A stretch of 64,000 nucleotides of DNA from Geminocystis sp. NIES-3708 (GTDB lineage Bacteria > Cyanobacteriota > Cyanobacteriia > Cyanobacteriales > Cyanobacteriaceae). The notes under the pieces are model-generated. The model was not told the origin of the DNA. It searched no databases and was given only the letters and a program-made list of their open reading frames with translations. Both the position numbers and the translations under genes were made by a program. Below are positions 29,185-39,471 of the stretch, one piece after another. Location: the NCBI RefSeq assembly GCF_001548095.1, contig NZ_AP014815.1, positions 1,735,656 to 1,799,655 on the forward strand, given 5' to 3'. Each line of letters starts with the position of its first letter. The stretch's first letter is position 1.

Positions 29185-30396
29185 TTAATTTTCTGTTAAT
29201 TCTATAGCCATATTTAATAATTCTTGTTTTAATTCTTGGGCAACTTTTGGATTTTGTTGTTTATTCAAATCATAGGCTTTTTGAAAAGCGCGAATACTGT
29301 CTTCTATTTCTCCTTGTTTATATAATAAAACTCCTAAATTTTGATATGCCCAAGGATAACTTGGATTGAGTTTGATAGCGTTTTGATATGCGTCAATGGC
29401 TTTAAAGTTACGTCCCATTGCTCGATAAGTTAACCCCAAATTATAATAAGCTAAGGCAAAATTTGGTTCGATTTTTAAGCATTCTTCATAAAGTTTAATG
29501 GCGTTATTAAAATCTTGTCCTTGATAACATAAACTACCTAAGTTATGATAAGCTCCTAATTTGAGTTTCGCTAATATTGGTTGTGTAATGGCTTTTTGAT
29601 AATGTTTAACGGCGGTATCCCATTGTTTTTCTTTGACTAAAGCATTAGCTAGATGGTAATGCAGTTCAAATAATGTCGCAGTGGTTGCTAAATTCAATTT
29701 TAAGCCAGTCTTCAGCAATTTTAGACCTTTTTTGGTGTCTCCTAAATCAAGGTATAATGCACCTAATTTACTGCAAACATAAGCATCATTGGGATTTCCC
29801 TTTAAATAAGATTCCATGGCTTTTTTTGCCCGTTGAGTTTTATCTTGAGAAGCAATAATTTCGGGTTGATAACCATAATGTTTAATGGCAATTTCTGGTA
29901 AATCAACGATGCGCCAATGAGTTTCTTTTTCTTGTAAAGATAATACCGCATCATCAATTAAAGCATGATAAGGGCGGGAAAATTTGATGTCAGGATGTTT
30001 TCTAAATAAACGAGATAATTGAGAATAAGGAGAAGAAAGTGCGCCAATTTCGTGACGAATTAAATTAACAACCAGATTATCTTTTTCTTTAATCACTTGT
30101 TGAATATAAGGGATAATTGGGGGGTTTAAAATTTCGTCAGCATCTAAGACTAAAACCCATTCTGTGTTGACATATTCTAAGGTTTGATTTCTGGCTTGGG
30201 CAAAATTATCTTGCCACGAATAATCATAAACTTTTGCACCTGAGTTGTTTGCTATTTCTTTTGTATTGTCGGTTGAGCCTGTATCGACAATCACTATCTC
30301 ATCCACTAAATTTTTGACACTATTAAGACAATCTACAAGGTTGTGTGCCTCGTTTTTGACAATCATCGAGAGGGTAATGTTGCTATGAATAGTCAT
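29185..30396 (-). CDS. GT2 glycosyltransferase with C-terminal TPR repeats
   Basis: I start at the ATG at 30396 (MTIHSNITLSMIVKNEAHNL), 403 residues; a GTG at 30429 would add eleven residues not seen in related proteins. The N-terminal half is a GT-A fold: VKNEAHNLVDCLNSV, IVDTGSTDNT, and the metal-binding LVLDADEIL near residue 90. From about residue 185 there are four to six TPR units (NPNDAYVCSKLGALYLDLG onwards). This GT2 plus TPR design is common in cyanobacteria and usually acts on proteins or polysaccharides at the membrane face. The substrate is unknown. Confidence 0.88.
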   Translation of the reverse strand: MTIHSNITLSMIVKNEAHNLVDCLNSVKNLVDEIVIVDTGSTDNTKEIANNSGAKVYDYSWQDNFAQARNQTLEYVNTEWVLVLDADEILNPPIIPYIQQVIKEKDNLVVNLIRHEIGALSSPYSQLSRLFRKHPDIKFSRPYHALIDDAVLSLQEKETHWRIVDLPEIAIKHYGYQPEIIASQDKTQRAKKAMESYLKGNPNDAYVCSKLGALYLDLGDTKKGLKLLKTGLKLNLATTATLFELHYHLANALVKEKQWDTAVKHYQKAITQPILAKLKLGAYHNLGSLCYQGQDFNNAIKLYEECLKIEPNFALAYYNLGLTYRAMGRNFKAIDAYQNAIKLNPSYPWAYQNLGVLLYKQGEIEDSIRAFQKAYDLNKQQNPKVAQELKQELLNMAIELTEN

Positions 30397-30565
30397 GAGA
30401 TATAATTCTTGATTGTGGGGGATGCCCACTCTACACTAATAATATAATTGCTAATGGTTAATTATATTCGGGCAAATACTTTTATTTAAAATTTTTTGAG
30501 AAGATAAATTTTGATAAAATTTTTTATAATCTTGATTGTAATAGAAATGGTTGATTGTTTTTGTG

Positions 30566-31365
30566 GGCGTTGGTGAATGAGGGTATGATAGAAAAAGGAA
30601 AAAAGTGAAGTAAAAAAACATGAAATGTCCAGAATGTGGCTCCAAGAATATCAATAAAAATGGCATAAAAAAAGGAAAACAAAATCATATTTGTGTTTAT
30701 TGTCGCGGACAATTTATAGCTCTAGAACAACTCAGTGGTAAAGGTTATAGTGATGATCTCAGAAAAGAATGCTTAAAAATGTACGTCAATGGTATGGGTT
30801 TTCGAGCTATTGGGAGGATTAAACAGGTGCATCATACAACGATCATCTCTTGGGTTAAAGCAGTGGGTCAAATTTTGCCACAGAGCTATCATCCAGAAAC
30901 GCGACCAGAAGTTGGAGAATTAGATGAATTGCAAACCTTTGTCGGCTCAAAAAAAACCAATCTGGCGATGGACAGCGGTAGATCATTTTCACGAGGGTAT
31001 ATTGGAATGGGTCATAGGGGATAGAAGTGCAAAAACATTTAGACCGTTGTGGGAGCAAGTAAAAAAATGGCATTGTTATTTTTATGTAACAGACGGGTGG
31101 AAAGTCTATGGAAACTTTATTCCTGAGGGCGACCAAATCATCTGTAAAACATACATGACCAGAGTGGAGGGAGAAAATACGAGATTAAGACATTATCTTG
31201 CTAGACTACATCGAAAAACTTTATGTTATTCAAAATCCATGGAGATTTTAAAGTATTCTGTTTCACTATTGATTCACTATCTCAAATTTAAAGATATACC
31301 AATTCCTTTTCGTCCTTTAGGGAGAACTACTTTTAGTCTTCTTCATACCTAAAATCACCAATGCC
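30566..31365 (+). mobile_element. IS1-family insertion sequence with 8-bp target duplication
   Basis: The 800-bp element is bounded by imperfect inverted repeats, GGCGTTGGTGAATGAGG at the left against GGCATTGGTGATTTTAGG (reverse complement of the right end), with shared GGTATGA further in. It is flanked by the exact duplication TTTTTGTG at 30558-30565 and 31366-31373. It carries a two-frame transposase gene and lies within a decayed Uma2 gene. Confidence 0.88.
30620..31352 (+). CDS. IS1-family InsAB transposase, made by -1 frameshifting
   Basis: The first frame (30620-31024) starts MKCPECGSKNINKNGIKKGK, a zinc-binding domain (CPECGS and CVYCRG), followed by a helix-turn-helix. Near 30950 it contains a run of eight A residues, which fits the slippery heptamer A-AAA-AAA in phase. 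A -1 shift leads into the second frame, QKKPIWRWTAVDHFHEGI, which runs to 31352. The joined protein of about 243 residues holds the IS1 DDE set: Asp in GELDELQTFVG, Asp in YVTDGWKVYG, Glu in VEGENTRLRHYLARLHRKT. The site for frameshifting and all catalytic residues look intact. Confidence 0.88.
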
Positions 31366-38915: not shown

Positions 38916-39032
38916 AATCAGTACATTTAATATTATGTCGCAAAAAAAAAAAATTGTCAAGGTTTTTATCAAAAAAAATTTCTCGAAAAAAAAGATAATC
39001 TCATTACTTCAGAAGTTCATCAAAATTCTTAG

Positions 39033-39420
39033 GTCTGAAACCCCGTACTTCTAAGACGGCTTTATATTTAGTGGTTTTAGGTTAAAATCAAGGTAGCCAC
39101 TAAGACCTTCATTGTGCGGTGCAACTCCCAGTGGTGGGACACCTGTTGAAAAGATGAGTTACCGAAATGGTACTCGGTGCAATGCACTATAGACTCAGCC
39201 CCCACAAGCAAAGACATTAAGGGAGTGAAAAGCATAAACCTAAAAGTAAACTGAAGGCAATAGCTAACAGTGTAGTGACGATTGACACCGCCTTGTGAAG
39301 TACTATTATATTTTTGTTAATAGACGATATGACAATGTGGTTGTTACGAGCAATGACTAGCATTGTGTTAGTTATCTCCTCTAAAGAATCCTCGTGGCTT
39401 TAGCCTATCGGGAGTGTCAA
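39033..39420 (+). mobile_element. ORF-less IS200/IS605-superfamily-like element carrying a structured RNA
   Basis: The 388-bp region between tRNA-Gly and cysK has no ORF but is not ordinary spacer. The left end (AAACCCCGTACTTCTAAGACGG) carries a CCGT/ACGG hairpin. The right end holds GGCTTTAGCC in an imperfect hairpin and closes GGGAGTGTCAA, the TCAA terminus that IS608-type transposases cut after. The left flank is TTAG. No transposase, TnpB or IscB ORF is inside, so it would move only with help in trans. The exact ends are inferred from these signatures. Confidence 0.55.
39070..39200 (+). ncRNA. HEARO/IscB omega-RNA-like structured RNA
   Basis: The strand folds into several local stems. 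These are AGTGG (39070-39074) with CCACT (39097-39101); GGTG-CAAC-TCCCA with TGGGA-CACC (39118-39143); GAG-TACC with GGTA-CTC around a GAAAT loop (39156-39175); and GTGC-AAT-GCAC (39177-39187). The order and phrases (CTAAGACC, CTCCCAGTGGTGGGA, CCTGTTGAAAAG, ACTCGGTGCAATGCACT, TAGACTCAGC) match what I remember of the HEARO RNA that sits just upstream of IscB genes in cyanobacteria. A covariance search is needed to confirm it. Confidence 0.55.
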
Positions 39421-39471
39421 TGAACTGTACAATAAAAACTTAAATGACAAGAACTAATCAAATACTGAGAA

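Follow-up and report, generated by a model that had tools for sequence, protein, structure and literature searches.

A protein-less IS200/IS605-type element upstream of cysK in Geminocystis with a putative TnpB-type omega RNA of its own

Introduction

The guide RNAs of TnpB are known as parts of the tnpB message. Stand-alone omega RNAs are known for IscB. In the IS200/IS605 element ISDra2, TnpB carries an RNA of ~150 nt from the right end of the element, the last ~16 nt of which are flanking sequence; TnpB is proposed to cut the donor joint, after which repair restores the element (PMC8612924, in excerpt). IS200/IS605 elements insert on the 3' side of a short motif and do not duplicate their target, as described for ISDra2 (same excerpt). 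Palindrome-associated transposable elements (PATEs) are protein-less, have the ends of IS605 elements and are often moved in trans. A PATE-like sequence from Halanaerobium contains the last 58 nt of tnpB and 160 nt of right end (PMC7290912, in part).

Here we describe a short element of Geminocystis sp. NIES-3708 that shares features with each of these systems. Like the guide RNA (reRNA) of ISDra2, its predicted RNA ends at the right end of the transposon and would draw its guide from the DNA beyond that end. To the left of the element lies a short motif, TTCAT here, compared with TTGAT for ISDra2 (PMC8612924, in excerpt) and TCAC for AmaTnpB (PMC10278001, in excerpt). Unlike the ISDra2 reRNA, the RNA is encoded neither in nor beside tnpB, its presumed scaffold is ~326 nt long rather than ~150 nt, and the element adds a 5' domain and a promoter-like box of its own. 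PATEs share its lack of a protein and its type of ends, but the RNA of this element covaries, is conserved across the order and includes a domain that is absent from 32 tnpB loci. A stand-alone IscB omega RNA (HEARO, RF02033) is likewise an omega RNA without its nuclease; it belongs to a different RNA family, has the opposite guide polarity, and its model gives no score here. Cas12f with its tracrRNA offers an analogy, in that a long scaffold RNA is produced separately from the gene of the nuclease, and the structural model of the partner TnpB described below finds Cas12f as its best match, followed by TnpB; in contrast to that pair, scaffold and guide would form one transcript here. Our literature search, which had partial coverage and from which we do not claim absence from print, returned no stand-alone TnpB-type omega RNA that is long, covaries, occurs across an order and has both a promoter-like box and an extra domain.

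Results

The window, the whole stretch of 64,000 nucleotides that we analysed (contig NZ_AP014815.1, positions 1,735,656 to 1,799,655), contains a 400-bp element at 39021-39420, between a tRNA-Gly gene and cysK. Its boundaries follow from the same-genus genome G011 (locus L182), where an exact empty site upstream of cysK joins GAAGTTCAT to TGAATTGTACAAT (TTCAT/TGAATTG across the joint); the window counterpart reads GAAGTTCAT, the element and TGAACTGTACAAT. None of the seven relatives checked (L182-L188) carries the element upstream of cysK. In four of them the empty site can be aligned; its motif is TTCAT in L182 and either TTAAT or TTGAT in L183, L184 and L188. These empty sites indicate that the element inserted 3' of a short motif and that target duplication is absent.

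The 4.04-Mb genome (G000) carries the element seven times, as the window copy and L002-L007. The six of these copies that were aligned are 78-99% identical to each other, and the motif preceding the copies is TCAT in six of seven and TCGT at L007. The other six own copies lie elsewhere in the genome, and the genes beside the copies vary. The seven copies and the empty sites show that the element has moved. With ends like those of tnpB insertion sequences, a gene-free interior and insertion without duplication, it is a non-autonomous, PATE-like member of IS200/IS605.

The original prediction had described an ORF-free region with transposon-like ends and had called for a search for further copies. 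The element is indeed protein-less (among the listed ORFs of 50 aa or more, a 52-aa minus-strand frame at 39077-39235 is the sole one wholly inside it), the genome does hold seven copies, far more than chance would give, and hairpins occur at both ends. The proposed right terminus, TCAA at 39420, was exact; the left end had been placed 12 nt too far in, since the G011 empty site puts it at 39021.

Three covariance models were used to describe the RNA. R1 (199 positions) was built from the seven own copies, R2 (108 positions) from 19 tnpB 3' ends alone, and R3 represents the 5' domain. The features, all on the plus strand, are as follows.

39016-39020, plus: TTCAT target and presumed transposon-adjacent motif, abutting the left side of the element and present in the empty site of G011
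39021-39420, plus: non-autonomous IS200/IS605-type element, from empty sites, seven genome copies and ends like those of three tnpB insertion sequences
39021-39059, plus: left end; palindrome GGTCTGAAACC at 39032-39042, hairpin CCGT..ACGG at 39043-39059, both read from the sequence
39061-39088, plus: promoter-like boxes TTTATA (39061-39066) and TAAAAT (39083-39088) at 16-nt spacing, from the sequence and the recurrence of TANAAT
39095-39420, plus: presumed omega-RNA scaffold of ~326 nt, from R1 (39096-39293), R2 (39242-39420) and covariation
39096-39241, plus: 5' domain, branched, with several hairpins, from R3 and covariation
39242-39420, plus: TnpB-type omega-RNA 3' part as matched by R2, from AAAAGTA to the transposon end, with ~70 extra nt inside
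39282-39286, plus: loop UUGAC, possibly forming a pseudoknot with the terminal GUCAA (39416-39420), from complementarity
39396-39405, plus: right-end palindrome GGCTTTAGCC within the terminal hairpin, read from the sequence
39421-39436, plus: presumed guide TGAACTGTACAATAAA, the first 16 nt right of the element, by analogy with TnpB biology (ISDra2)

Across 291 genomes of the order, R1 found 104 matches (E up to 1), spread over 53 genomes. The 76 matches with E up to 5.3e-4 were used as copies and the 28 weaker ones were excluded; L079, L146, L147 and L148, among the 76, are partial or weak. Exact pattern matches in named genomes came from Roseofilum, Anabaena, Crocosphaera, Aphanothece and an uncultured cyanobacterium. 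Plasmids yielded a single weak match of 47 nt, in Microcystis, and phages yielded no match to the element. At L061 (1031-2206), an R1 element sits between two similar frames, which we take to resemble carboxysome shell proteins.

Many of the 76 copies have the left end TCATC...GGGT.GAAACCCC-hairpin, and others differ there. The right end, GAATC-hairpin-GAGTGTCAA or near it, was recognised in 53 copies; several of the 23 without a pattern-recognised right end are contig stops. Double changes across copies preserve pairing in the terminal stem of the right end. A second class of left end (approximately GGGA.GTGGAAACC..GGAGGAAACA) occurs in the R1 elements L066, L067, L070, L127, L130, L144 and others, and is similar to that of some partner tnpB elements (L155, L158 and L166, for example). 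Judged from these sequences, the R1 RNA family may reside on more than one type of transposon end.

The 5' domain, ~145 nt long, occurs (R3) in 34 of the 291 sampled genomes of the order. In a class-wide sample of 388 genomes (E up to 0.001), R3 matched five, which were the window's own genome and four of the same order. Its best E-value in 32 tnpB loci was 0.76, and a domain without a counterpart in these loci is not simply left-over tnpB.

The folded RNA that had been predicted from the window is unremarkable when the sequence is folded singly (z -1.37 on the plus and -0.54 on the minus strand), but its pairing is upheld by covariation across the copies. Changes on both sides occur at 16 of the 22 pairs of the 5' domain, where 91.6% of cells are paired; shuffles gave 76.7% and slid controls no more than 47.0%. 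The ratio of G-U to A-C cells was 161:64 in the plus fold and 131:91 with the opposite strand folded (40 copies, remaining from the 53 with a recognised right end after removal of near-duplicates); the greater excess of G-U in the plus fold favours a plus-strand RNA. Alignment A7 comprised the window and 32 of 45 deduplicated copies, with some ends adjusted by hand.

Of the 76 copies, 44 have a TANAAT box directly before the RNA start, compared with 3.3% of random 24-nt windows from the same loci; the box is absent in the own copies L004-L007. We infer the scaffold start at 39095 from this -10 box, and the scaffold would end at the transposon boundary. A UUGGC or UUGAC complementary to GUCAA was found in 43 of 53 copies, where the loop pattern was preset as UU[AG][AG]C and GUCAA is near-invariant as the transposon end.

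Ends closely similar to those of the element occur at three further places in the genome (L020-L022), which are tnpB-only insertion sequences with a gene for a TnpB of 419-424 aa. Their left ends are 76-85% identical to that of the element over 53-55 nt, and their right ends 85-96% over 26-51 nt. The 3' ends of partner tnpB genes follow the pattern ...AAAAGTA-stem-GG..TTTGGC..CC...AAGAATC-hairpin-GAGTGTCAA and covary at 11 of 19 pairs. The alignment behind R2 (A6) took 19 of 26 usable ends from 32 loci, omitting two near-duplicates and five long ends; of the other six loci, five did not fit the pattern and one was an empty reference.

Over the 76 loci (E<=1), R2 gave 74 matches, 70 of which lay by position on the elements (70/76 copies) and four elsewhere. 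The best copies reached E-values of 9.1e-21 to 1.1e-19, and the window copy 1.1e-5. Searched alone, the window matched at 39242-39420 with an E-value of 2.1e-6 (34.7 bits); removal of the right-end hairpin left 19.4 bits (over 5.4 kb, E 9.7e-4). The transposon end, which would be common to both in any case, contributes part of the R2 score. The tnpB-type part of the window copy is broken by ~70 extra nt, and most R2 matches also exceed the 108 positions of the model; in L062, L136 and L145, the R1 5' domain is joined directly to an unbroken tnpB-type 3' end.

A sequence-only nhmmer profile of the 62 nt of the tnpB end from AAAAGTA, which leaves out the right end, was built from 29 of the 32 tnpB loci and run on the 76 loci (E up to 10). 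Of its 51 matches, 44 fall within the expected span. Six of the seven others lie shortly behind the span (L139, L140, L144, L132 and twice in L135), and the seventh lies near a tnpB remnant in L137. Among the own copies, L002 and L003 were found and the window copy and L004-L007 were missed. By sequence homology, the last ~180 nt of the element is a predicted TnpB-type omega-RNA (reRNA) scaffold. Since this 3' part matches TnpB omega-RNA ends, the guide would come from the right flank.

The plus strand (GGTPVEKMSYRNG...) was also considered as a remnant of a tnpB C-terminus. This reading was dropped because all three plus frames contain stops and the conservation follows RNA pairing.

A tnpB-like sequence lies near the element in 3 of 76 loci (L137, L119 and L121) and inside the element in none. 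Similarity to the partner clade was found by tblastn near one of the 76 copies (L137), while L119 and L121 have other TnpB motifs ~1.4-1.5 kb from the element (regular expression, 69 loci). The tblastn search with the partner clade was added because the regular expression requires C..C and misses this clade, which is without that motif. A tblastn match at L062 was rejected as a tnpB neighbour, the matching query portion being the non-TnpB part of a fused frame. The R1 element of L062 and the partner tnpB element of L172, in different genomes, adjoin seemingly the same gene (the fused frame matches at 63% over 463 aa by tblastn) and may mark a common region of insertion.

The genome has only one match to a Y1 transposase (L151), outside all these elements. 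At L023 (362-430, C1 near 1660060), a left end of a tnpB element has no matching right end within the next 1.7 kb and is, from its sequence, a presumed decayed copy of a tnpB element.

Of the 33 R1-positive genomes, 22 carry the clade of TnpBs around L020; among the other 258 genomes, 33 do (odds ratio 13.6, p 9.8e-11). The thresholds were E up to 1e-90 for TnpB, chosen after seeing the list, and E up to 1e-4 for R1; the Fisher p-values are too small and merely indicative, because the genomes are related and the threshold is post hoc. With R3, the counts were 22 of 34 positive and 33 of 257 other genomes. The R1 odds ratio was 0.38 for genomes with only more distant TnpBs and 4.4 for IscB. The genome lists for R1, TnpB and IscB and the R3 counts were compiled by hand. 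In the 111 genomes scored as IscB-positive (112 by the search's own count), the odds ratio between R1 and the clade was 20.8; in IscB-negative genomes the association was weaker (4/10 vs 20/170, odds ratio 5.0, p 0.03). At the threshold chosen, the clade is missing in 11 of the 33 R1-positive genomes, including G047 with its six copies, and some of the assemblies are fragmentary.

The TnpB of this clade in the genome matches the NCBIfam family guided_TnpB with 165 bits (cut-off 100). In alignment A8, which took 23 of 30 proteins, D195, E330/E332/E333 and D383 are invariant. G286 presumably lies near the usual position of the glutamate. A glycine in place of the glutamate is similar to the TnpBs with a repositioned glutamate described in PMC10711439 (in part), and the NADxN motif would place the clade among the Derived TnpBs of PMC10278001 (in part). 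An alignment-based AlphaFold model (pLDDT 78.4), taken because the single-sequence model was unusable, matched AsCas12f (E 1.3e-18) and TnpB structures (E 1.1e-13); sequence searches of the PDB gave no match.

Discussion

We propose, with a probability of roughly 0.7, that this protein-less element of the IS200/IS605 superfamily transcribes a long TnpB omega RNA (reRNA) from a unit of its own, and that TnpB uses this RNA in trans, which retains the element. RNA polymerase would initiate near 39095 and continue past the right end into the flank. The ~326-nt scaffold with ~16 nt of right flank would then be bound by TnpB from other insertion sequences; the element makes no TnpB, so its RNA would act in trans. 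Upon excision of the element by a Y1 transposase acting in trans, the TnpB-RNA complex would cut the empty donor joint, TTCAT plus guide, and repair from the sister copy would reinstate the element. The element would thus exploit tnpB elements for its retention and a trans-acting transposase for its movement. The extra 5' domain could stabilise the RNA or aid in competing for TnpB without tnpB translation.

With less confidence, though we lean slightly in its favour, we extend this reading to an order-wide group of protein-less OMEGA elements that make a long omega RNA from their own promoter and commandeer TnpB in trans. Nuclease and guide RNA would here be encoded by mobile genes that have parted from each other, and the RNA gene would have gained a further domain; the separate tracrRNA of Cas12 systems is a natural counterpart. 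If true, the RNA half of a TnpB system can live alone as a selfish, separately mobile element, which would suggest how a Cas12-type nuclease may come to have an enlarged scaffold that is separate from the protein. The element would also provide a natural trans-acting scaffold for trial with compact TnpB, and it adds an RNA family without a match in Rfam 15.

The element could instead be an ordinary PATE or MITE, a passenger moved through its ends by a transposase in trans, with the RNA as an inert relic of a deleted tnpB element. The ends that match a tnpB insertion sequence, the known PATE-like elements with a tnpB 3' remnant (PMC7290912, in part) and the four own copies without a TANAAT box are consistent with this. 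However, a relic would neither preserve the pairing of its 5' domain through double changes across genera nor hold a TANAAT box at a set position in 44 of the 76 copies, and its 5' domain would not be expected to lack a counterpart in all 32 tnpB loci. We therefore consider a passenger unlikely, even though it is the strongest of the alternatives.

Slightly less likely still is a decoy RNA that occupies TnpB without supporting cutting, and so shields the host or restrains rival tnpB elements. A decoy would have the same homology to tnpB ends and the same co-occurrence with TnpB, and the inserted arm and the added 5' domain do deviate from the tnpB-linked form. Yet the terminal GTCAA and its complementary UUGGC/UUGAC loop, sought with the preset pattern, are kept in 43 of the 53 copies with a recognised right end, and that end remains at the guide boundary, as would be expected of a working guide RNA.

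That the RNA is a host regulatory leader of cysK, as the original prediction had also considered, or an unrelated structured RNA spread by an insertion sequence, is improbable. The window copy does lie upstream of cysK in the same direction, and some copies are fixed at one place within a genus (L073/L076/L123/L129; L072/L074/L126), but a conserved leader role is not supported: the seven relatives lack the element upstream of cysK, the other six copies of this genome lie elsewhere, and the genes beside the copies vary. The homology of the 3' part to tnpB ends argues against both forms of this explanation.

Finally, a HEARO/IscB omega RNA with its guide on the left can practically be discarded: in its favour are the phrases likened to HEARO and the weak IscB-R1 co-occurrence, but HEARO is found in neither the window nor the genome compared with 18 of 20 IscB loci, none of 30 IscB loci gave an R1 match under E 1.9, and IscB reaches no better than E 3.0e-18 in this genome.

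The HEARO likeness suggested in the original prediction found no backing: Rfam matches to the element (E up to 10) comprised four on the minus strand (E 1.1 to 9.2), all far under their cut-offs and none to HEARO. At the gathering cut-off, Rfam reported the tRNA alone in the window and nothing in the element, and among 20 related loci the lone Rfam 15 match at that cut-off was a tRNA in L064. The proposed covariance-model check for HEARO (RF02033) was negative for the window and the whole genome, while the 18 positive IscB loci of the order, our positive control, scored 108-163 bits. The R2 model matched nothing below E 0.053 in the 30 IscB loci. An iscB gene had been expected elsewhere in the genome; the best match to the IscB model NF040563 (E 3.0e-18) we read as far under the 175-bit cut-off, true IscBs of the order reach 1e-140, and the gene downstream of the element is cysK, not iscB. 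The guide had been assigned to the left flank, towards the tRNA-Gly gene, and would instead lie on the right, from 39421 on. What stood was the idea of a nuclease-less element with transposon ends and an omega-type guide RNA usable in trans, in the TnpB rather than the HEARO/IscB family.

Copies at a common genomic place within a genus include, besides the two groups named above, L078/L080/L150. Both the element and its adjoining right flank are conserved in these genus-fixed copies, which could be domesticated guide RNAs.

R2 gave a second match in the window, at 30356-30483 (E 0.11), where another kind of gene lies; we took it as a chance match. At 30620-31352 of the window, two overlapping plus-strand frames of 134 and 142 aa occur, which we take to resemble the InsA/InsB transposase of the IS1 family with a frameshift.
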